Positions 48,173 to 58,457 of a stretch of 64,000 nucleotides of DNA are shown one piece after another. The DNA comes from Methylobacterium organophilum (GTDB lineage: Bacteria; Pseudomonadota; Alphaproteobacteria; Rhizobiales; Beijerinckiaceae): the NCBI RefSeq assembly GCF_022179465.1, contig NZ_BPQV01000009.1:124001-188000 (forward strand), written 5' to 3'. Position 1 is the stretch's first letter; every line of letters starts with the position of its first letter. Below the pieces are notes generated by a model. It worked only from the letters and a program-made list of their open reading frames with translations. It was not told the origin of the DNA and ran no database searches. A program made the position numbers and the translations under genes.

Positions 48173-48660
48173 GGGGGATCTTCGTGCCTGGGGACGGGGG
48201 TCGTCCCTGTCATATTGTATCAGCACGCCGCGATGAAAGTGACCGGCCGCCGGCTTTCTTCGGATGTGGCGCAGCCGCTCCCAGGGCGTGTCCCGGGGGG
48301 ACGGGAGAAGCGTCGCAATATTGGCGCACGCCGTCGCTAAAGGCTGGCCCGGCGAGGCGGGCGAGCGGAATCGGCTTGCCAAGACCGGGGCGGGGCGGAA
48401 CCGTCCGGCTCGTATTCCAGGAGGCACCGGGGGCGTGGTGGAGCGGGGGACAGCAGCGCACGGCCGCGGGCCGCGGGCGGATTCGGCATGGCCGTGGGAG
48501 CCCGTGTCCCGGCGGCCGGCGGCTCACGAAAAGCTGATGGGGCAATCCGACGCTTTCCCGCGCGCCCGTCGCGGTTTCGGTGCACAGGGAGCGCCGCTCC
48601 GCACGGACGGGCCATCCGGCACCGCCTTCCGCCCCATCCGACGCCGAGCCTGACCCGTCC
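48173..48660. other. Divergent intergenic region between COG0523 gene and RND operon
   Basis: This gap of 488 nt is the longest in the window. A short AT-rich patch (TGTCATATTGTATCAGC, about 48209-48225) lies about 40 nt upstream of the COG0523 start and is its probable promoter region. A second patch (GTCGCAATATTGGCG, about 48311) is central. The rest up to 48660 is GC-rich with no recognisable gene or repeat. Confidence 0.45.
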
Positions 48661-50004
48661 ATGGACGCCCGAAACACGACCACGCCGGACATGCGCGACC
48701 AGATCGATTCCGAGCGCGCCCATCGCCGGGGGCGCCGCTCCGCCCTGCTGCGGATCGCCCTCCTCCTGTCGCTCGTCGTCGCGGGCGTCGCCGCGATCGC
48801 CATCTGGCCGCAGCGCACGCGGGAGCTGATCGCGCAGGCGGTCGCCCTCCTCCACGACGTCAAGGAGGGCGAGACGGCGGAGAACGAGGCGGCCGAGGCC
48901 AGGCCCGCCTCGGGCCTGCGCGTGTTCAAGCCCAGCGCCGAGCAGCGCAACGCCTTCGCGATCAAGCCCGTGGAGACGATGCTGTTCCGGCCCGAGGGCT
49001 CGGCGGAGGGGCGCATCGCCCTCAACGACGACGACAACGTGCCCGTGACCTCGCCCTATGCCGGGCGCGTCAACAAGGTGCTGGTGCGGGCGGGCGACCG
49101 CGTGAAGGCCAACCAGGTCCTGCTGACCATGGAGGCCACGGACATGGTCCAGGCCCAGAACGACTACCAGGCCGCCCTCAACACCCTGCACAAGACGCAG
49201 GCCCTGCTGAAGCTCAACCAGACCATCGCCGCCCGGCAGCAGGAGCTGTTCCAGGCCCGGGCCACGGCGCTCAAGGACTATCAGTCCGCCCAGAACGACG
49301 TCATCGCCGCCCAGAGCGACCTCGGCACGGCGGAAGCCTCGCTCCAGGCGGTGAAGAACCGCCTGCGGCTCCTGGGCAAGACCGACGCCGAGATCGTGCA
49401 GTTCGAGCGGAACGGCACCCTCAGCTCCGAGACCGAGATCCGGGCGCCGATCGCCGGCACCATCGTCCAGCGCAAGGTGGGCGTCGGGCAGTACATCTCC
49501 TCCAACAGCGATCCGGTCTTCGTGATCGGCGATCTCTCCACGGTCTGGCTCATCGCCAATGTCCGCGAGAGCGAGGTGCCCCGGATCAAGATCGGCCAGG
49601 TGGTCGAGGCCCGGGTGGTCGGGCTGCCGCGCCTCACCTTCAAGGCGAAGGTCGACTACATGGCCGCGAGCCTCGACCCGGCCACGCGCCGGCTCGCGGT
49701 GCGCAGCGAGGTGGAGAATCCCGACCGCCTGCTGAAGCCCGAGATGTTCGCGAGCTTCACCATCGTCACCGGCGACGACCGGGCCTCGCCGGGCGTGCCC
49801 AGCGCCGCCGTGGTCTACGAGGGCGAGCGCGCCCATGTCTGGGTCGCCCGCCCCGATGGCGCGGTCGAGGCCCGGGACGTGAAGCTCGGGCTCACCAACG
49901 GCGACTTCGTGCAGGTCGTCGAGGGGCTGAAGCCCGGCGAATCCATCGTGACCCGCGGCGCCCTGTTCATCGACCGGGCGGCGAGCGGGGAGAAGGCGTC
50001 GTGA
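48661..50004 (+). CDS. RND efflux periplasmic adaptor subunit (CzcB/CusB-like)
   Basis: This 447-residue membrane fusion protein has one N-terminal anchor helix (ALLRIALLLSLVVAGVAAIA), a lipoyl/barrel-sandwich half motif VTSPYAGRVNKVLVRAGDRV, a long alpha-hairpin (about 155-245), the second lipoyl half IRAPIAGTIVQRKVGVGQYI, and a beta-barrel and membrane-proximal domain to the end. It links the inner-membrane pump to the outer-membrane channel. The following pump gene overlaps its stop by 4 nt (GTGA). Substrate cannot be fixed; the pattern is nearest the heavy-metal branch, but no extra metal-binding N-terminal domain is present. Confidence 0.93.
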   Translation: MDARNTTTPDMRDQIDSERAHRRGRRSALLRIALLLSLVVAGVAAIAIWPQRTRELIAQAVALLHDVKEGETAENEAAEARPASGLRVFKPSAEQRNAFAIKPVETMLFRPEGSAEGRIALNDDDNVPVTSPYAGRVNKVLVRAGDRVKANQVLLTMEATDMVQAQNDYQAALNTLHKTQALLKLNQTIAARQQELFQARATALKDYQSAQNDVIAAQSDLGTAEASLQAVKNRLRLLGKTDAEIVQFERNGTLSSETEIRAPIAGTIVQRKVGVGQYISSNSDPVFVIGDLSTVWLIANVRESEVPRIKIGQVVEARVVGLPRLTFKAKVDYMAASLDPATRRLAVRSEVENPDRLLKPEMFASFTIVTGDDRASPGVPSAAVVYEGERAHVWVARPDGAVEARDVKLGLTNGDFVQVVEGLKPGESIVTRGALFIDRAASGEKAS

Positions 50005-53000
50005 ACGCGCTGATCGCCTTCTCCCTGCGCCAGCGGGTGCTGGTGTTCCTGCTGTTCCTGATGACCCTCGGGATCGGCTATGCCAGCTACACCCAGCTCA
50101 ACATCGAGGCCTACCCCGATCCGGTGCCGCCGCTGGTCGACGTGATCACGCAGGTGCCCGGCCAGTCCGCGGACGAGATCGAGCGCTACATCACGATCCC
50201 CCTCGAGGTGCAGCTCGCGGGCATCCCCAACGCCACCGTGGTACGCACGATCTCGCTGTTCGGCCTGTCCGACGTGAAGATCCAGTTCAACTACGAGTTC
50301 ACCTATCAGGAGGCGCTCCAGCGCGTCCTCAACCGGCTGTCGCAGCTGCCCCCACTGCCCAACGGCGCCCAGCCGCAGATCTCGCCGACGAGCCCGGTGG
50401 GCGAGATCATGCGCTACAAGCTGCTCGGGCCGGCGGGCTTCAGCTCCACGGACATGAAGACCCTGCAGGACTGGGTGCTGCAGCGCCGCTTCAAGGCGAT
50501 TCCCGGCGTGGTCGACGTCACCGCCTTCGGCGGCAAGGCCAAGGAATACGAGATTTCCGTCGATCTCGCCCGGCTGCAATCCCACGGCATGACCCTGGTG
50601 CAGCTCGTCACCGCGCTGAACAACTCCTCGATCAATGTCGGCGGCCAGACGCTGAACGTCGGCGAGCAATCGGCCGTGGTGCGCGGCATCGGCCTGATCC
50701 GCGACATGGACGATATCGGCGACACCATGCTCACCCAGGTGAACGGCGTGCCAGTGCTGGTGCGCGACGTCGCCGAGGTGCGGGTGTCGAGCGCGCCGCG
50801 GCTCGGCATCGTCGGGCACGACGCGGACAGCGACGTGGTCGAGGGCATCGTCCTGATGAGCCGCGGCGGCGAGTCCCTGCCGACCCTCAAGCGCGTCGAG
50901 GCGGAGATCGACCGCATCAACGCCGGCGGCATCCTGCCCCCGGGCGTGAAGATCGAGCGGATCTACGACCGGCGCGGCCTGATCGAGACCACCACCCACA
51001 CGGTCATGCACAACCTCGTCTTCGGCGTGGTGCTGGTCTTCGTGGTGCAGTGGCTGTTCCTGGGCTCCTTGCGCAGCGCCATCATCGTGGCCGCGACCAT
51101 CCCCTTCGCCCTGGGCTTCGCCATCACGATCCTGGTGCTGCGCGGGGACTCGGCCAACCTGCTCTCCCTCGGCGCGATCGATTTCGGCCTGATCGTCGAC
51201 GCCACCGTTATCATGGTGGAGAACATCTTCCGCCACTGCGCCGAGCCCGAGCACGGCGAGGGCCAGGCGCCGCCGCCGGGGCTCAGCGGCCGCCTCGCCA
51301 CCATCGCCATCGCCGGCATGGAGGTGAACCGGGCGATCTTCTTCTCGGCCACGATCATCATCGTCGGCTTCCTGCCGCTCTTCACCCTGACCGGCGTCGA
51401 GGGCCACATCTTCGGCCCCATGGCCAAGACCTACGCCTACGCGCTGATCGGCGGCCTGCTCGCGACCTTCACCGTTTCCCCGGCCCTCTCGGCCCTGATC
51501 CTGCCGAACCACGTGGAGGAGAAGGACACGCTGATCGTGCGCCTGCTGCGCTTCGGCCACGTGCTGATCCTGCGCTTCGCCCTGCGCAACAAGCTGCTCG
51601 CCCTGCTCGGGATCTTCGCCATGCTCGGCGCCTCCGGCATCGCGGCGCGGACCCTGGGCCTCGAATTCCTGCCCAAGCTCGAGGAGGGCAACCTCTATAT
51701 CCGCGGCACCATGCCGGGCTCGATCTCGCTGGAGGCGGGGGATTCCTACGTCCAGGGCATCCGCAAGCTGGTCCAGGCGGTGCCGGAGGTCGTCACCGTG
51801 ATCTCGCAGCAGGGCCGGCCCAACGACGGCACCGACGCGACGGGCTTCTTCAACGTCGAGATCCTGGCCCCGCTGAAGCCGATCGGCGAGTGGCGCAAGG
51901 GCATCTCGAAGGAGGACATCATCGCCGACCTGCAGGCGAAGTTCGACGCGCAGTATCCCGGCATCGAGTTCAACTTCTCCCAGTACATCGAGGACAACGT
52001 CCAGGAAGCGGCCTCGGGCGTGAAGGGCGAGAACTCCGTCAAGATCTACGGCACCGACCTCAACGAGATCACCAAGACCGCCGAGGCGATCAAGCGCGTG
52101 CTCTCGACCATCCCCGGGATCGAGGACCTCGCCGTCTTCACCTCCCTCGGCCAGCCGACGGTGCGCATCGACATCGACCGGCGCAAGGCGGCCCGCTACG
52201 GCCTCGCGCCGGGCGACGTGAACACCACGGTGCAGGCGGCGATCGGCGGCCAGACCGCGGGCGACCTCTACGAATACGGCTCGGACCGGCACTTCCCGAT
52301 GCGGGTGCGCCTGGCGCCCGAATACCGGCGCTCCCTGGAGACGATCCGCAACATCACCATCGGCGCCACCGCCAGCAACGGCAGCGTCATCCAGGTGCCC
52401 CTCTCCGAGATCGCCACCGTCGAGCTCGTCTCGGGCGCGGCCTTCATCTACCGCGAGGACCAGGAGCGCTACATCCCGGTGAAGTTCTCGGTGCGCGGGC
52501 GCGACCTCGGCAGCGCCGTGATCGAGGCGCAGCGCCGGGTCGCCGAGGAGGTCGCGCTGCCCGCCGGCTACCATCTCGAATGGGTCGGCCAGTTCACCAA
52601 TCTCAAGGAGGCGGTGGCCCGCCTGAGCGTGGTGGTGCCGATCACCCTCGCCCTGATCGCCCTGCTCCTGTTCGTGAACTTCTCCTCCGTCTCCGACATG
52701 CTGCTCACCCTCTCGGTGATCCCGATGGCGATGATCGGCGGCATCTTCGCCCTGGTGCTGACGGGCACGCCGTTCTCGATCTCGGCGGCGATCGGCTTCA
52801 TCGCCCTGTTCGGCATCTCGACGATGGAGGGCGTGATCCTGCTCGCCTATTACAACCAGCTCCTCGAGGAGGGGCAGAGCCGGGCGGCGGCGGTCTGGAA
52901 CGCCGCCAACGTGCGCATGCGGCCGGTGATGATGACCTGCGTGGCTGCCTGCGTCGGCCTGCTCCCGGCGGCGGTCTCCACCGGCATCGGCTCGCAGGTG

Positions 53001-53150
53001 CAGAAGCCGCTGGCCCTCGTGGTGGTGGGCGGCATCCTGCTCGCGCCGAACCTGATCCTCGTGGTGGTGCCGGTGCTGATCGGCCTGTTCTCCCGCCGCC
53101 GCCCGAATTCCGCCGCCCAGCCCGGCGCCCATGCGAGGGCCGCCGCGTGA
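50001..53150 (+). CDS. RND efflux transporter permease (CzcA/HME-like)
   Basis: This 1049-residue inner-membrane pump has twelve helices and two large periplasmic loops. It begins ALIAFSLRQRVLVFLLFLMT. The fourth-helix region DFGLIVDATVIMVENIFRH carries the DFG...D...EN pattern of the heavy-metal-efflux RND branch, where the acidic residues relay protons. The second-half signature WVGQFTNLKEAVARLSVVVP is also CzcA-like. Compared with classic CzcA (DFGxxxDGAV), Ala-Thr replaces Gly-Ala next to the Asp, so the substrate could differ from Co/Zn/Cd. It starts at GTG 50001. Confidence 0.94.
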   Translation: MNALIAFSLRQRVLVFLLFLMTLGIGYASYTQLNIEAYPDPVPPLVDVITQVPGQSADEIERYITIPLEVQLAGIPNATVVRTISLFGLSDVKIQFNYEFTYQEALQRVLNRLSQLPPLPNGAQPQISPTSPVGEIMRYKLLGPAGFSSTDMKTLQDWVLQRRFKAIPGVVDVTAFGGKAKEYEISVDLARLQSHGMTLVQLVTALNNSSINVGGQTLNVGEQSAVVRGIGLIRDMDDIGDTMLTQVNGVPVLVRDVAEVRVSSAPRLGIVGHDADSDVVEGIVLMSRGGESLPTLKRVEAEIDRINAGGILPPGVKIERIYDRRGLIETTTHTVMHNLVFGVVLVFVVQWLFLGSLRSAIIVAATIPFALGFAITILVLRGDSANLLSLGAIDFGLIVDATVIMVENIFRHCAEPEHGEGQAPPPGLSGRLATIAIAGMEVNRAIFFSATIIIVGFLPLFTLTGVEGHIFGPMAKTYAYALIGGLLATFTVSPALSALILPNHVEEKDTLIVRLLRFGHVLILRFALRNKLLALLGIFAMLGASGIAARTLGLEFLPKLEEGNLYIRGTMPGSISLEAGDSYVQGIRKLVQAVPEVVTVISQQGRPNDGTDATGFFNVEILAPLKPIGEWRKGISKEDIIADLQAKFDAQYPGIEFNFSQYIEDNVQEAASGVKGENSVKIYGTDLNEITKTAEAIKRVLSTIPGIEDLAVFTSLGQPTVRIDIDRRKAARYGLAPGDVNTTVQAAIGGQTAGDLYEYGSDRHFPMRVRLAPEYRRSLETIRNITIGATASNGSVIQVPLSEIATVELVSGAAFIYREDQERYIPVKFSVRGRDLGSAVIEAQRRVAEEVALPAGYHLEWVGQFTNLKEAVARLSVVVPITLALIALLLFVNFSSVSDMLLTLSVIPMAMIGGIFALVLTGTPFSISAAIGFIALFGISTMEGVILLAYYNQLLEEGQSRAAAVWNAANVRMRPVMMTCVAACVGLLPAAVSTGIGSQVQKPLALVVVGGILLAPNLILVVVPVLIGLFSRRRPNSAAQPGAHARAAA

Positions 53151-53281
53151 AAGAATCCGCCGTGTTGCCCAGGCCACAGCCCCGCCGCGGCAGGCCCCGT
53201 GCGGCCGGAGCCGCGTTGACAGGCGGGCCCCTCCCCCACCTCTACGGGGCGTCGGCACGCGATCGGGGAGCGGGCGCCAGG

Positions 53282-54817
53282 ATGCTTCAGGGACGGCCGC
53301 GCAGCCTCGCCGCCGCCGCGCTCGCGCTCTTCGCCGCGCTGGCACAGGCGGGCTGCGCCGTGGGTCCCGACTTCGTGGCCCCGAGCGATCCGCAGGTCGC
53401 CGGCTACACGAAGGGCCCGCTCAAGGATCCGCGCGCGGCCGCGGGCGTGGCGACGAGCCAGGGCGGCTCGGCCGACCAGGATTTCGTGCACGGGGCCGAC
53501 ATCCCCGGCGAGTGGTGGCGCCTGTTCCGCTCCAAGGCGCTGAACCGCCTCGTCGAGGAGGCGCTCGCCAACAATCCGAGCCTCGACGCGGCCCAGGCCA
53601 CCCTGCGCATGGCCCGCGAGAACATCCTGGCGCAGAAGGGCACACTCTTCCCGACCGTCGGCTTCAACGGCCTCGCCTCGCGCCAGAAGGTGCCGGGCGG
53701 GGACCTGCAGAGTCCGCTGCAGAATCCCAACCAGCTCCTCTACAGCCTCTACACGCCGCAGGTGCAGGTCGCCTTCACGCCGGACGTGTTCGGCGGCAAC
53801 CGCCGCCAGATCGAGTCGCTGGAGGCACAGGCCGAGAACCAGCGCTTCCAGCTGGAGGCGGCCTATCTCACCCTCACCTCCAACGTGGTGCTCGCCGCGA
53901 TCCAGGAGGCCTCCCTGCGGGCGCAGATCGACGCGACCAAGCGCGTGATCCAGGCACAGACGGAGGTGCTGCAGCTCTACAACAAGCAGCTCTCCCTCGG
54001 GCAGGTCGCCGGGGCCGACGTGGTGCAGCAGCAGGCCCAGCTCTCGGTCTCGCAGCAGCTCCTGCCGCCGCTGGAGAAGCAGCTCGCCCAGCAGCGCAAC
54101 CTGCTCACCGCCCTGGTCGGCCGCTTCCCGAGCGAGGAGGTCACCCAGACCTTCACCCTCGCGAGCCTCAAGCTGCCGACCAAGCTCCCGGTCAGCCTAC
54201 CCTCCAGCCTCGTGCAGCAGCGGCCGGACGTGAAGGCGGCGGAAGCCGCGGTGCACCAGGCCAGCGCCGATCTCGGCGTCGCCGTGGCGAACCGGCTGCC
54301 CCAGTTCACCATCACCGCGAATGGCGGCTCCTCGGCCACCCGCATCGCCCAGCTCGCCACCTCGGCGGCGAGCTTCTACGGCATCGTCGGCACCATCGCG
54401 CAGCCCCTCTTCGACGCGGGCACGCTCTACCGGCGGCAGCGGGCCTCCGAGGAGGCGCTCAACGTGGCCCAGGCCCAGTACCGGGCGGTGGTCATTTCGG
54501 CCTTCCAGAACGTCGCCGACGTGCTGCGGGCGCTGCAATCGGATGCCGACGCGGTCGCGGCCGCGGGCGCGGCGGAGAAGGCGACCGGCGAGAGCGTCGG
54601 GCTGATCCGCAAGCAGTTCGAGGCCGGGGCCGTCAACAGCGCGACGCTGCTCATCGCGCAGCAGGCCTATCTCTCGGCGCTGGTGAATTCCGCCAGCGCC
54701 CGCGCCAACCAGTATGCCGACACCGCCGCCCTGTTCCAGGCGCTCGGCGGCGGCTGGTGGAACCGCATGGACGTCCGCCCCCCCCGCCCCGAGACGGACC
54801 CGGCGCGGTTCTTGTGA
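53282..54817 (+). CDS. Outer-membrane efflux channel lipoprotein (NodT/TolC family)
   Basis: This 511-residue protein has a signal sequence ending ALAQAGCAVGPDFVAP, the Cys and CxVGPDF pattern of NodT-type RND outer-membrane lipoproteins, though the residues before the Cys are not a perfect lipobox. Two OEP repeats follow, with ALNRLVEEALANNPSLDAAQ early, TPDVFGGNRRQIES in the middle, and LLPPLEKQLAQQRNLLTALV. The start at 53282 is favoured by the signal peptide; an in-frame GTG at 53147 that overlaps the pump stop would add 45 residues. Third gene of the RND operon. Confidence 0.93.
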   Translation: MLQGRPRSLAAAALALFAALAQAGCAVGPDFVAPSDPQVAGYTKGPLKDPRAAAGVATSQGGSADQDFVHGADIPGEWWRLFRSKALNRLVEEALANNPSLDAAQATLRMARENILAQKGTLFPTVGFNGLASRQKVPGGDLQSPLQNPNQLLYSLYTPQVQVAFTPDVFGGNRRQIESLEAQAENQRFQLEAAYLTLTSNVVLAAIQEASLRAQIDATKRVIQAQTEVLQLYNKQLSLGQVAGADVVQQQAQLSVSQQLLPPLEKQLAQQRNLLTALVGRFPSEEVTQTFTLASLKLPTKLPVSLPSSLVQQRPDVKAAEAAVHQASADLGVAVANRLPQFTITANGGSSATRIAQLATSAASFYGIVGTIAQPLFDAGTLYRRQRASEEALNVAQAQYRAVVISAFQNVADVLRALQSDADAVAAAGAAEKATGESVGLIRKQFEAGAVNSATLLIAQQAYLSALVNSASARANQYADTAALFQALGGGWWNRMDVRPPRPETDPARFL

Positions 54818-54865: not shown

Positions 54866-54920
54866 GCGGTGAGGGGGAGTCGCCGGAGGTGGCTCCTCCG
54901 GAATCGCCCCCCCTCACCGC
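54866..54920. terminator. Large bidirectional terminator overlapping the tetR stop codon
   Basis: The outer arms GCGGTGAGGGGG (54866-54877) and CCCCCTCACCGC (54909-54920) and the inner arms CCGGAGG and CCTCCGG make a long hairpin between convergent genes. The right arm includes the stop codon of the TetR gene (54914-54916). Confidence 0.75.
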
Positions 54921-55480
54921 GGCCTCAACGCCTCCGTCAGGGCCCGGACGGCATTGCCGAACCCCTCCGCGCCGGCGAGCAGACGCTCCAGCAGGAGGGC
55001 GCCCTCCAGGGTCGCCACCACCATCCGGGCCTGGGCGGGCGGGTCGAGGTCGGCGCGGAGCGTGCCGCTGGCGACGCCCTCCCCGATCACCCGCTCCAGC
55101 CAGCGGATATGCTTGTCGAAGAAGCGGGCGATGTCGCCCTTGAGCGCGGCGGGCAGCGTGTCGAGCTCCACGGCCAAAGCCGCGCAGAGGCAGCCGAGCC
55201 CCTGCTCGACGCCGAGGAGATAGAGCCGGGCATAGGCCGCGATCCGCGCCAGCCCGTCCCCGCTCTCGCTCAGGATCGTGTCGAGCGCCGCGTCGTAGCG
55301 GGCGTCGTAGGCCTCGATCAGGGCGCGGGCCAGGTCTTCCTTGGTGCGGAAATGGTGATGGATGCTCGCCTTGCGGATCCCCACCGTCTCCGCGAGGTCC
55401 GCATAGCTGAAGCCGGAATAGCCACGGCCCCGCACCAGGATCTCCGCCTGGACCAGAAGCTCGGCACGGGTGTCTCTCAT
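54914..55480 (-). CDS. TetR-family transcriptional regulator
   Basis: This encodes 188 residues. The N-terminal helix-turn-helix reads RGYSGFSYADLAETVGIRKA, then SIHHHFRTKEDLARALIEAY, a standard TetR DNA-binding domain at about residues 5-55. The C-terminal ligand domain has a Cys pair in GLGCLCAALAVELDTLP, suggesting possible thiol or aldehyde sensing. It is divergent from the metallo-hydrolase gene across a 151-nt region that contains an 18-bp palindrome, its likely operator. It would be expected to repress itself and the divergent relay genes. Confidence 0.93.
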   Translation of the reverse strand: MRDTRAELLVQAEILVRGRGYSGFSYADLAETVGIRKASIHHHFRTKEDLARALIEAYDARYDAALDTILSESGDGLARIAAYARLYLLGVEQGLGCLCAALAVELDTLPAALKGDIARFFDKHIRWLERVIGEGVASGTLRADLDPPAQARMVVATLEGALLLERLLAGAEGFGNAVRALTEALRPR

Positions 55481-55587
55481 GGGCGTCGTCGGGGTCGTCT
55501 TCGGGTCGTCGCGCGGGGGCCGGTCACGGGACGGTGACCGTTTCGGATCCCTGGAAAGCTAGGTCTCGCACTTGACGCGGCAAAAAT

Positions 55588-55605
55588 CTACCTACTAGAT
55601 GGTAG
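55588..55605. promoter_or_regulatory. 18-bp palindromic operator for the divergent TetR regulator
   Basis: CTACCTACTAGATGGTAG reads CTACC-N2-CTAG-N2-GGTAG; fourteen of eighteen positions are symmetric. It lies 27 nt before the hydrolase ATG and 108 nt before the tetR ATG. A TTGAC element at 55572-55576 is just upstream on the plus strand, so a bound repressor would cover the rightward promoter. Confidence 0.75.
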
Positions 55606-55631: not shown

Positions 55632-56612
55632 ATGGCTGCGGGAGCGGTCGGAAAGGGTGTCGCCGCCGCGGAGCGTCCTCCCTTCGGGCGCGCCTCCCGG
55701 CGCGAGGCCCTGTTCGGCGGCCTTTGCCTCTGCTGTCTGCCGGCCTTGGGACGGGCCGCCGAATCGTTCGCCCTCGACGAGGTGGCCCCCGGGACCTTCA
55801 TCCGCCGCGGCCCCGATGCGGAGGCGACGCCGGAGAACGACGACGCCATCGCCAATATCGGCTTCATCGTCGGCAAGGACGGGGTGCTCGTCACCGAATC
55901 CGGCGGCAGCCTCGCCGATGGGCAGTGGCTGCGGGCCGAGATCGCCAAGCGCACGGACAAGCCGATCCGCTACGTGGTGCTGACCCACGTCCATCCCGAC
56001 CATTGCTTCGGCGCGGCCGCCTTTGCCGCGGACAAGCCGACCTTCATCGGCCATGCGAGCCTGCGCGAGGCCCTCGATGCCCGCGGCGAGTTCTACCGCA
56101 AGCGGCTCGCCGAGATCCTCGGCGAGGACAAGGCCGGCACCGTGGTCTACCCAACCATGACGGTGAAGGATTCGGCCGAGATCGATCTCGGCGGGCGCCG
56201 GCTCAGCTTCCACGCCCACGGCGCCGCCCATACCAGCAGCGACCTCTCGATGCTCGACCACGAGAGCGGCCTCTTGTTTCCCGCCGACCTGCTCTTCGTC
56301 GGCCGCATCCCCTCCCTCGATGGCAGCCTGCTCGGCTGGTTCAAGGAGATCGAGGTGCTGAAGGCGATGGGCGCCACGCGTGCCGTGCCGGGCCACGGCC
56401 CCACCCTGGTCGATTTCGCGCCCGAGGCCGCCAACCTCGCGCGTTATCTCGGTGCCCTGCGCGACGAGACCCGGAAGGCGATCTCCACCGGCCTGCCGAT
56501 CGAGCAGGCGGTGGCGACGGTGGCCCAATCCGAGCGCGGGCAATGGGCGTTGTTCGACACCTATCACGGCCGCAACGTCACGCAGGCCTATAAAGAGCTT
56601 GAGTGGGAATGA
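55632..56612 (+). CDS. Exported metallo-beta-lactamase-fold hydrolase, quinoprotein relay type
   Basis: This 326-residue protein has a twin-Arg-like signal (SRREALFGGLCLCCLPALGR). The metallo-beta-lactamase fold has THVHPDHCFG (HxHxDH, residues 119-124), HAHGAAHTSSD (His 200), PADLLFVG (Asp) and AVPGHGPT (His 255), a complete two-zinc set. The arrangement with a SoxYZ-like carrier and a CxxxCW protein matches the family that I know as quinoprotein relay system zinc metallohydrolase. It is expected in the periplasm. The start has a strong AGGAGGAA site 7 nt before the ATG. Substrate unknown. Confidence 0.88.
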   Translation: MAAGAVGKGVAAAERPPFGRASRREALFGGLCLCCLPALGRAAESFALDEVAPGTFIRRGPDAEATPENDDAIANIGFIVGKDGVLVTESGGSLADGQWLRAEIAKRTDKPIRYVVLTHVHPDHCFGAAAFAADKPTFIGHASLREALDARGEFYRKRLAEILGEDKAGTVVYPTMTVKDSAEIDLGGRRLSFHAHGAAHTSSDLSMLDHESGLLFPADLLFVGRIPSLDGSLLGWFKEIEVLKAMGATRAVPGHGPTLVDFAPEAANLARYLGALRDETRKAISTGLPIEQAVATVAQSERGQWALFDTYHGRNVTQAYKELEWE

Positions 56613-56649
56613 GGCGGGGCTACATCAATTTAGAGTGGAGGTTCACGCC

Positions 56650-57465
56650 ATGAAGAACTGGATCCTCGCCCTCGGGCTGACCCTGTCGGCCGCGGCGCTG
56701 AGCACGGGCCAGGCGCGCGCCGGCGCCACCGATTCCGACGAGGAGCGCGCCGCCCGCTGGAAGGAGGTGAAGACCTCCATCTTCGGCGACCGGGCGATCG
56801 AACCCGGCGAGAACGTCGTGAAGATCGACGCCCCCGCCCGCGCCCTCGACGCCGCCCTGGTGCCGATCACCCTGACCATGCCCGAGAAGGACAAGGTCAA
56901 GGCGCTCTCCTTCGTGATCGACGACAATCCGTCGCCCTACGCCGCCCACTTCACCTTCGGCCCGGCGGCCGACCCGGGCGAGATCAAGCTCCGGGTGCGG
57001 GTGAACAACTACACGAACGTCCACGCCGTCGTGGAGACGAAGGACGGCAAGCTCTTCGAATCCGCCAAGTTCGTGAAGGCCTCGGGCGGCTGCTCCGCGC
57101 CCATGGGCATGAGCGACGAGGAGGCCATGAAGGGCATGGGCGAGATGCGCATGAAGTTCGGCGGCGAGCCGGCCCCCGGCAAGCCGGTCGAGGCGACGCT
57201 GATGGTCCGCCACCCGAACTTTTCCGGCATGCAAATGAACCAGATCACCCGCGACTACACGCCGGCGCGCTACATCAACAAGCTCGACGTCTCCTACGGC
57301 GACAAGCTGATCTTCCACCTCGACGGCGACATCTCCATCGCCTCGAACCCGGTGATCAACTTCGCCTTCCTCCCGGAGGGCAAGGGCCCGATCAAGGTCG
57401 TGGCCTCCGACAACCAGGACGGGCACTGGGAGCAGACCTTCAATGCCCCCTCGCCGAGCAACTGA
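56650..57465 (+). CDS. Quinoprotein-associated SoxYZ-like carrier protein
   Basis: This encodes 271 residues with a signal peptide (MKNWILALGLTLSAAALSTG, cleavage after ARA). Residues about 30-150 resemble SoxY and end in KASGGCSAPMG, where Cys148 corresponds to the carrier Cys of SoxY (normally in GGCGG). Residues about 175-265 resemble SoxZ, giving a natural SoxY-SoxZ fusion. Between them is a Met-rich stretch, MGMSDEEAMKGMGEMRMKF. Such proteins are known beside PQQ-dependent dehydrogenases; the cargo is not established. It lies 37 nt after the hydrolase gene. Confidence 0.9.
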   Translation: MKNWILALGLTLSAAALSTGQARAGATDSDEERAARWKEVKTSIFGDRAIEPGENVVKIDAPARALDAALVPITLTMPEKDKVKALSFVIDDNPSPYAAHFTFGPAADPGEIKLRVRVNNYTNVHAVVETKDGKLFESAKFVKASGGCSAPMGMSDEEAMKGMGEMRMKFGGEPAPGKPVEATLMVRHPNFSGMQMNQITRDYTPARYINKLDVSYGDKLIFHLDGDISIASNPVINFAFLPEGKGPIKVVASDNQDGHWEQTFNAPSPSN

Positions 57466-57478
57466 GCGGGCGGACACG

Positions 57479-58063
57479 ATGCAGGCCTGTCTTCGCCTCG
57501 CCGCCCTCGCCGGCCTCGCCCTGCTCCTCGGAGCGGCGGGGCCGGCCAATTCGCCGGTCGACGTGCCAGAGCCGGAGGGCCTCTATACCGGGCCGCAGCG
57601 CGGCTACACCCCGCCGACGCTGAAGGGCGCCAAGGTCGTCGACCTCGCCGCGCTGGAGGCGCTCCAGGCGGAGGCCAAGCCCGTGCTGATCGACGTGGCG
57701 CTGGCCGACCGCAAGCCGGAGGGCCTGCCGCCGGACCGGCCCTGGTTCCCGGCCCACCGCTCGATCCCCGGCGCGGTCTGGTTCCCGAATGCCGGCGCGG
57801 TGCCCCTGCCGCCGGAACGGGAGGCGACCTTCCTCAAGCGCGTCGAGGACCTGACCGGCGGCGACAAGGCCCGCGCCATCGTCACCTTCTGCCATCCGGA
57901 ATGCTGGGGCAGCTGGAACGCGGGCAAGCGGCTCGTGCTTGCCGGCTACACCAACGTGCACTGGTTCCCGTCGGGCATTGAGGGCTGGCAGGACGCGCAC
58001 GAGACGAGCGTGCTCAAGCCGGATCCGGCTTGGGGCGCGAGCGGGGGTGCCGCGCAGCGCTGA
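57479..58063 (+). CDS. PQQ-dependent-catabolism-associated CxxxCW protein (rhodanese-like)
   Basis: This 194-residue protein has a signal peptide (MQACLRLAALAGLALLLGAA). A rhodanese-like fold follows, with VLIDVALADRKPEG, AHRSIPGAVWFPNAG and VTFCHPECWGSWNAGKRLVL, where Cys138, Cys142 and Trp143 form the motif that names the family, then NVHWFPSGIEGWQDA. The active-site Cys of rhodaneses would correspond to Cys138. Expected in the periplasm, passing sulfur or redox equivalents to neighbours. It is 13 nt after the SoxYZ-like gene and 7 nt before the thioredoxin. Confidence 0.9.
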   Translation: MQACLRLAALAGLALLLGAAGPANSPVDVPEPEGLYTGPQRGYTPPTLKGAKVVDLAALEALQAEAKPVLIDVALADRKPEGLPPDRPWFPAHRSIPGAVWFPNAGAVPLPPEREATFLKRVEDLTGGDKARAIVTFCHPECWGSWNAGKRLVLAGYTNVHWFPSGIEGWQDAHETSVLKPDPAWGASGGAAQR

Positions 58064-58070
58064 GGGTTCC

Positions 58071-58457
58071 ATGCTCGACCGCCGATCGATTCTCTTCAGT
58101 CTCCTCGTCCTCGGAGCTGGGCTCGAAGCCGGCTTCGGAGCCGCGCTTCCCTTCGACGAAGCCGGCTTCGAAGCCGCGCAGGCCGCCGGGCGGCCGATTC
58201 TCGTCGCGATCAGCGCGCCCTGGTGCCCGATCTGCAAGGCGCAGAAGCCGATTCTCGCCCGCCTCTCCGCCGAGCCCCGCTACAAGGATCTCGCCCTGTT
58301 CGAGATCGATTTCGACAGCCAGAAACCCCTGGTCCGCCGCTTCGGCGCCACCATGCAGAGCACGCTGATCGCCTTCAAAAACGGCAAGGAGGTCGGCCGC
58401 TCCGTCGGCGAGACGCAGCCGGAGTGGATCGAATCTCTTCTGGAGAAAACCCTCTGA
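58071..58457 (+). CDS. Exported thioredoxin-like protein
   Basis: This encodes 128 residues. The N-terminus is MLDRRSILFSLLVLGAGLEA, a probable signal sequence. The thioredoxin fold has the active site APWCPICKAQKP (Cys52 and Cys55) and MQSTLIAFKNGKEVGR, with Ser-Thr in place of the usual Thr-cis-Pro region. The CPIC centre differs from CGPC and often marks a reductant for a specific partner. It probably reduces the SoxYZ-like or CxxxCW protein encoded just upstream. Confidence 0.9.
   Translation: MLDRRSILFSLLVLGAGLEAGFGAALPFDEAGFEAAQAAGRPILVAISAPWCPICKAQKPILARLSAEPRYKDLALFEIDFDSQKPLVRRFGATMQSTLIAFKNGKEVGRSVGETQPEWIESLLEKTL

Follow-up and report, generated by a model that had tools for sequence, protein, structure and literature searches.

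Gene content of the locus

The sequence analyzed here (the window) is a 64,000-nucleotide stretch of the Methylobacterium organophilum genome (contig C9, positions 124001 to 188000, in an assembly of 5.06 Mb and 113 contigs). It contains four closely spaced genes that encode a putative periplasmic relay built around a fused SoxYZ-like carrier protein, the subject of this work. The four open reading frames (ORFs), all on the forward strand, have the spacing (37, 13, and 7 nucleotides) and motifs listed in the original prediction, which was made from the sequence alone, and the families named there also fit. The first gene (55632 to 56612) encodes a SoxH-like metallo-beta-lactamase (MBL)-fold hydrolase of family TIGR04559 (E 7.6e-112; 373.3 bits versus a curated NCBIfam cutoff of 280) with conserved metal ligands. 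The second (56650 to 57465) encodes the fused carrier, of family TIGR04557 (E 4.2e-80; 268.3 versus 140 bits), with Cys148 in a GGCSAP arm, and the third (57479 to 58063) a rhodanese-fold CXXCW protein of family TIGR03865 (E 1.6e-41; 141.9 versus 128.05 bits) with the motif C138-HPE-C142-W. The last gene (58071 to 58457) encodes a thioredoxin-like protein with a CPIC motif, identified by profile matches and alignment, which exceeds the cutoff of Pfam PF00085 and matches TIGR01068 below its cutoff (E 9.9e-14). Judged by eye, the hydrolase carries a twin-arginine translocation (Tat)-like signal (SRREALFGG) and the other three proteins have hydrophobic N termini, so that all four, the thioredoxin included, are predicted to be exported.

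In alignments with relatives (all counts include the window's own row), carrier Cys148 was kept in 93 of 93 rows, C138 and C142 of the CXXCW protein in 59 of 59, and C52 and C55 of the thioredoxin in 15 of 15, while hydrolase residues H119, H121, D123, H124, H200, D219, and H255 each made up at least 95% of the residues in their columns (79 rows). The carrier matched both SoxY and SoxZ in a PDB profile search, and these profiles, the alignment, and the predicted structure all point to SoxY and SoxZ folds with the carrier cysteine on a flexible arm, as in Sox proteins. The model of the CXXCW protein adopts a rhodanese fold, with Cys138 following strand 134 to 137 in the active-site loop, and its fold matches include 5ve4 (a persulfide dioxygenase-rhodanese fusion) and 3tp9. 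As for the hydrolase, the only PDB sequence matches at an E value of ≤1e-5 were 8d2z and 6uxu, which leaves its identification as a persulfide dioxygenase unsupported by this search; a weak similarity to GloB (E 3.3e-5) was also seen.

TIGR04559, TIGR04557, and TIGR03865 are named after the gene neighborhood of pyrroloquinoline quinone (PQQ) dehydrogenases, which does not enter into the models themselves. At the window locus, that neighbor is absent: as originally predicted, no quinoprotein was found on the window's contig, and the matches to TIGR03075 and PQQ_2 lie on contigs C2, C4, C6, C7, and C15. XoxF-, ExaF-, and MxaF-type genes are all present elsewhere in this genome. Ranked by carrier likeness, the nearest named relatives belong to Methylobacterium and Methylorubrum. 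Downstream from the four relay genes is panB.

Co-occurrence with XoxF- and ExaF-type dehydrogenases

A genome-level link between these families and quinoproteins had been proposed originally, with a lack of co-occurrence named beforehand as the observation that would speak against it. We looked for such a lack in 289 alphaproteobacterial genomes (class sample), counting carriers at ≥189 bits, XoxF when it was ≥65% identical to a XoxF from the window's genome, and ExaF at ≥64% identity. A PQQ alcohol dehydrogenase (PQQ-ADH) exceeded the cutoff in 70 genomes and the carrier was found in 21; in 15 of these 21, carrier and PQQ-ADH matches were listed within ca. 8 kb on one contig. The link held, with the carrier present in 20 of 25 genomes with XoxF or ExaF, 0 of 45 with other PQQ-ADHs, and 1 of 219 with no PQQ-ADH over the cutoff. 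XoxF was found in 18 genomes, 16 of them with the carrier. Judged from 55 proteins, mostly the best TIGR03075 match, of the 50 carrier-less PQQ-ADH genomes, G146, G023, and G212 had an ExaF type, G112 and G022 had XoxF, and 45 genomes had neither. At the cutoff of TIGR04557 itself, 26 of 289 genomes qualified; of the five not counted above, three had fused, stop-free matches of 145 to 157 bits that retain the GGC arm (G264, G107, and G160), and in two the match crosses a stop (G165 and G072). At that cutoff and without stops, the carrier was present in 20 of 25, 2 of 45 (G264 and G107), and 2 of 219 (G160 added).

Similar results were obtained with 367 genomes sampled across the phylum, some of which are shared with the class sample. 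Here, 59 genomes exceeded the cutoff and 49 were counted, every match in the 10 dropped genomes crossing a stop. Stop-free carriers were present in 46 of 69 XoxF/ExaF genomes versus 3 of 298 others and, by type, in 31 of 37 XoxF and 20 of 40 ExaF genomes (G333, with ExaF at 57% identity, and G596, at 58%, left out); by taxonomic labels, the 49 carriers span 15 families. Fisher values on the co-occurrence counts are too small, because the genomes are related.

XoxF and ExaF are lanthanide enzymes (PMC12997753; this and the other papers are cited from excerpts). Two features of the dehydrogenases were considered as predictors of the carrier and rejected. When one looks at the dehydrogenases of the 50 carrier-less genomes, the vicinal cysteines (CC) are present in 49 of them and the lanthanide-site Asp alone in 21, 16 of which are not XoxF/ExaF. 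As a separate observation, one relay (L224, 6629 to 12483) belongs to a genome (G434) without XoxF or ExaF at the thresholds used, in which MxaF was not searched.

Two clades of carriers

The carrier tree and locus counts cover the best 80 of 578 candidate loci by likeness to the window, plus further loci, and favor Methylobacterium; each fetched stretch extends up to ca. 10 kb on each side, and some loci end at contig ends. In the tree of 93 carriers (midpoint rooted, support of 100/98), 39 rows form clade A and 54, including the window, clade B. A quinoprotein scoring at least 300 bits was present on the fetched stretch in 23 of 39 clade A loci versus 0 of 53 clade B loci, and pqq genes in 12 of 39 and 1 of 53, respectively. 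Weaker quinoprotein matches appeared in two clade B loci, L077 (57 bits, at the locus edge) and L079 (262 bits, 32% identity). By its sequence, the window's carrier thus belongs to a stand-alone clade. A further group of carriers, recognized by best match, is adjacent to ExaF and has a GGGC[ST]AP arm.

In both samples together, 44 XoxF genomes have a carrier, and 31 of them were classified: 25 had clade A, 6 had clade B (G000, G238, G208, G405, G411, and G334), and none was found with both, although only some of the extra carrier matches of G241 and G469 were assigned to a clade. Since A and B were never found together, clade B seems to do the job of clade A from a distance, as if B had replaced A. 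Four Methylobacterium genomes possess two clade B units each (L060/L069, L054/L077, L228/L229, and L227/L230), one being of the TetR-MBL type, while the other is a second set in which the carrier is accompanied by thioredoxin and CcdA.

A TetR regulator and its putative operator

The relay genes have a putative regulator of their own, as had been proposed. A TetR family gene (TetR_C_13; 54914 to 55480, − strand), assigned by profile matches and alignment, is transcribed divergently from them, and a palindromic box (CTACCTACTAGATGGTAG, 55588 to 55605), a candidate TetR operator found by pattern scoring, overlaps the putative −10 region 3′ of a TTGAC (55572 to 55576, + strand), judged by eye to be a possible −35 element. 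A strong divergent TetR match was found in 25 of 53 clade B loci, including Beijerinckiaceae and Acidomonas, and in 0 of 39 clade A loci. The general form of the box, CTACCTACTARWTGGTWG, 3′ of a TTGAC, scored at least 14 of 18 in all 25 fetched TetR loci (18 in the window) and at most 13, a score that shuffled sequence also reaches, in the 66 loci without TetR; the pattern was derived from the TetR loci themselves, so that the test is carried by these controls. Within three mismatches, the box occurs once in this genome, versus three matches for a reversed control pattern, which gives no sign of a wider regulon. This distribution makes the TetR look like a dedicated, local regulator of the relay unit, with binding inferred from the sequence pattern.

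The pair C97-L-C99 is invariant in the TetR (26 of 26 rows). It is not unique to this protein, since 2g7s and the distant TetR of L079 have CVC at that position, and it seems to be a trait of a wider subfamily. The best solved match of the TetR is 2g7s, ahead of NemR.

On the TetR side of the relay genes are a membrane-fusion protein and a pump of the resistance-nodulation-division (RND) type (48580 to 53150), followed by a third gene resembling an outer membrane factor (judged by eye) that ends at 54817. The exporter originally described beside the relay is therefore real in the window, but it is a trait of a sub-lineage (the window, L078, L227, and L228), an RND pump being found beside the relay in 1 of 53 clade B loci, and the case for it as a functional part of the relay is weak. 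The efflux system (48580 to 54817) might share the TetR, but the box was found solely on the relay side.

Neighboring genes and the nature of the cargo

The clade B locus L064, from Methylobacterium sp. C25, encodes the carrier, CXXCW protein, thioredoxin, and a CcdA-like protein, and within ca. 10 kb of these genes are soxB (truncated at the end of the locus), soxA, soxZ, soxY, and soxC as well as genes for a SoxH-like MBL protein and a TsuA-like transporter. In two Hyphomicrobium loci (L119 and L128), soxC directly follows a clade A carrier. CcdA was found in 7 and thioredoxin in 14 of 53 clade B loci; SoxV and SoxW form the same kind of pair in the Sox system. Because Sox components adjoin some relatives, we consider with moderate confidence that the cargo is sulfur rather than formaldehyde. 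Both had been offered in the original prediction, and for formaldehyde we found indirect hints only.

Proposed function and alternatives

Starting from the family identities, the conserved cysteines and metal ligands, the co-occurrence with XoxF/ExaF, the two-clade split, the TetR-box linkage, and the sox, CcdA, or SoxC genes that adjoin some relatives, the reading that we favor, with a probability of about 40%, is that of a periplasmic, Sox-like sulfane-sulfur relay serving XoxF- and ExaF-type PQQ-ADHs at a distance. The CHPECW rhodanese would catch reactive sulfur (thiosulfate, persulfide, or sulfide-derived sulfur) and load it onto Cys148 of the SoxYZ-like arm, from which the SoxH-like hydrolase, in the place of SoxB, would cleave the group. 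The thioredoxin, fed by CcdA where it is encoded, would then reset the cysteines. The benefit could be that sulfur nucleophiles are kept away from PQQ. The divergent TetR would repress the operon through its single operator until released by a signal.

Several observations weigh against this proposal. The co-occurrence of clade B itself is based on seven genomes, five of them of the window's genus; six are the clade B genomes named above, and the seventh (G485) has ExaF and no XoxF at an E value of ≤1e-200. Eight XoxF genomes lack the carrier (G112 and G022 in the class sample and G489, G347, G470, G503, G522, and G582 in the phylum sample), as do 20 of 40 ExaF genomes, and conversely G111, G434, and G560 have a carrier and neither XoxF nor ExaF, while G333 has only a 57%-identical dehydrogenase. 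A simple lanthanide rule fails as well, because 16 of the 45 genomes with other PQQ-ADHs also have the lanthanide-site Asp in the dehydrogenase that was examined. The loci with sox neighbors are few independent cases. In the M. organophilum genome, no other TIGR04557 match was found at an E value of ≤0.001, SoxC being the only other sox gene searched by its own model, and its SoxC family protein (574 bits) is encoded among sulfonate uptake (SsuA-like) genes (L134, C8:221000-240900), not with sox genes. In addition, random barcode transposon sequencing of Pseudomonas putida in the absence of lanthanides gave little phenotype (PMC12997753), and a direct role of SoxYZ fusions in sulfur metabolism has been thought unlikely (PMC11237559).

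A maturation relay, in which the proteins form or isomerize disulfides such as that of the vicinal Cys pair or assist in inserting or stabilizing PQQ and the metal in XoxF/ExaF, with the thioredoxin and the CHPECW protein as redox partners, has been proposed (PMC12997753) and would account for the specific co-occurrence and for the thiol-redox proteins of the set. We find it rather unlikely, as the vicinal pair is nearly universal in the carrier-less genomes, XoxF genomes without a carrier exist, and such a task has no need for a SoxYZ carrier or for an adjoining SoxC. It is also unlikely that the stand-alone clade is an independent unit for sulfur detoxification or assimilation, which would share methylotroph hosts with the quinoproteins and no joint work. 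The absence of any strong quinoprotein match from all 53 clade B loci, the one locus embedded in sox genes, and the small number of genomes behind the clade B co-occurrence would agree with it, but clades A and B were not found together in the 31 classified genomes, as expected for one job, and the sister clade A is adjacent to xoxF and pqq genes. An aldehyde relay, as first proposed, in which Cys148 would bind formaldehyde or another C1 group for oxidation or transfer and the hydrolase would set it free, is improbable: the co-occurrence with alcohol dehydrogenases, the GloB similarity, a Roseobacter soxH gene depicted alongside xoxF5, adhI, and gfa (PMC5934484), the presence of NemR among the solved relatives of the TetR, and the L224 relay beside a 369-amino-acid protein with matches to the models for dihydroneopterin aldolase and formylfuran-phosphate synthase would suit it, but it leaves the rhodanese, soxC, CcdA, and the sox-locus neighbors unexplained, and 2g7s surpasses NemR.

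A further reading, which we regard as doubtful, is that the stand-alone, TetR-controlled clade is a distinct sulfur-defense module, a successor to the xoxF-adjacent carrier that enables rare-earth alcohol oxidation to proceed amid reactive sulfur, with the TetR sensing this sulfur through its invariant CLC pair. Many methylotrophs have the fused SoxYZ carrier, and if it does clear sulfur for XoxF/ExaF, sulfur chemistry would be joined to rare-earth methanol oxidation. This could explain why thiosulfate blocks growth of Hyphomicrobium denitrificans on methanol (as cited in PMC12997753 and PMC11237559). With its one putative repressor and one putative operator, the stand-alone operon lends itself to deletion or induction that leaves every dehydrogenase gene intact, which makes the question of cargo and function directly testable.

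Comparison with described systems

Relays of this kind are already in print (PMC12997753 and PMC11237559), contrary to the original description of a poorly described system, and so is the main hypothesis, the protection of PQQ from sulfur. A 2026 review describes the operon META1p1703-1705 of Methylorubrum extorquens AM1, with a thioredoxin-like gene, near xoxFGJ, and the counterparts PP_2666, PP_2677, and PP_2678 of P. putida, as conserved alongside lanthanide ADHs, and offers two ideas, maturation or the shielding of PQQ from sulfur nucleophiles (PMC12997753). The same three families are found in the window, and the AM1 operon shares the thioredoxin-like gene as well but, compared by description and not by sequence, differs in its proximity to xoxFGJ. 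A TetR with an operator is not mentioned for these loci in the excerpts of the review. A 2024 paper ties fused SoxYZ proteins (SoxYZ-S4 and SoxYZ-S2) to xoxF or PQQ-ADH and soxH, and suggests that they shield methanol dehydrogenase against thiosulfate (PMC11237559). Those loci resemble ours in the fused SoxYZ, the SoxH-like and rhodanese neighbors, and the alcohol dehydrogenase link, but they contain the dehydrogenase, and the excerpts mention neither a TetR, nor the thioredoxin, nor a stand-alone clade; the two sets were compared by description, without matching S4 and S2 to clades A and B. In the excerpts of the literature on such relays, we found neither the division into two clades nor the pairing of TetR and box, the embedding in a sox locus, or the present counts, all of which could still have been published.

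With canonical Sox (SoxXA, SoxYZ, SoxB, SoxCD, and SoxVW; soxVW are named in PMC3797975), the window shares the SoxY/SoxZ folds, the cysteine on a flexible arm, the thioredoxin and, in some relatives, CcdA. Unlike canonical SoxYZ, its carrier is fused, with the cysteine inside the chain, and an MBL fold stands in place of SoxB; SoxH has been reported in place of SoxB in one Sulfurimonas (PMC11237559). The MBL-rhodanese proteins 5ve4 and 3tp9 also pair these two folds, which in the window are separate, predicted-exported proteins. Two soxYZ fusions are known in Methylophaga (PMC6548844). Viral SoxYZ has been mentioned (PMC11237559), and one scan using the single carrier protein gave no viral carriers.

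Other neighbors of the carrier

A conserved ORF of 125 to 160 amino acids (cluster 8) was found near the carrier in L109 (10746 to 11231, − strand) and 12 other loci. The one member tested had no Pfam or NCBIfam match. The ORF is perhaps a shadow ORF, or else it could encode a new small protein that belongs to the xoxF cluster. In the two Hyphomicrobium loci (L119, 6856 to 9180, and L128, 812 to 3136), a TonB-dependent receptor resembling PqqU (below the cutoff) precedes the carrier and soxC. Finally, in two metagenome-derived proteobacteria (L084, 6933 to 10639, and L086, 3106 to 6839), the relay genes are located between truB and the gene for ribosomal protein S15, as judged from a scan of the L086 products and from the same gene clusters in L084.

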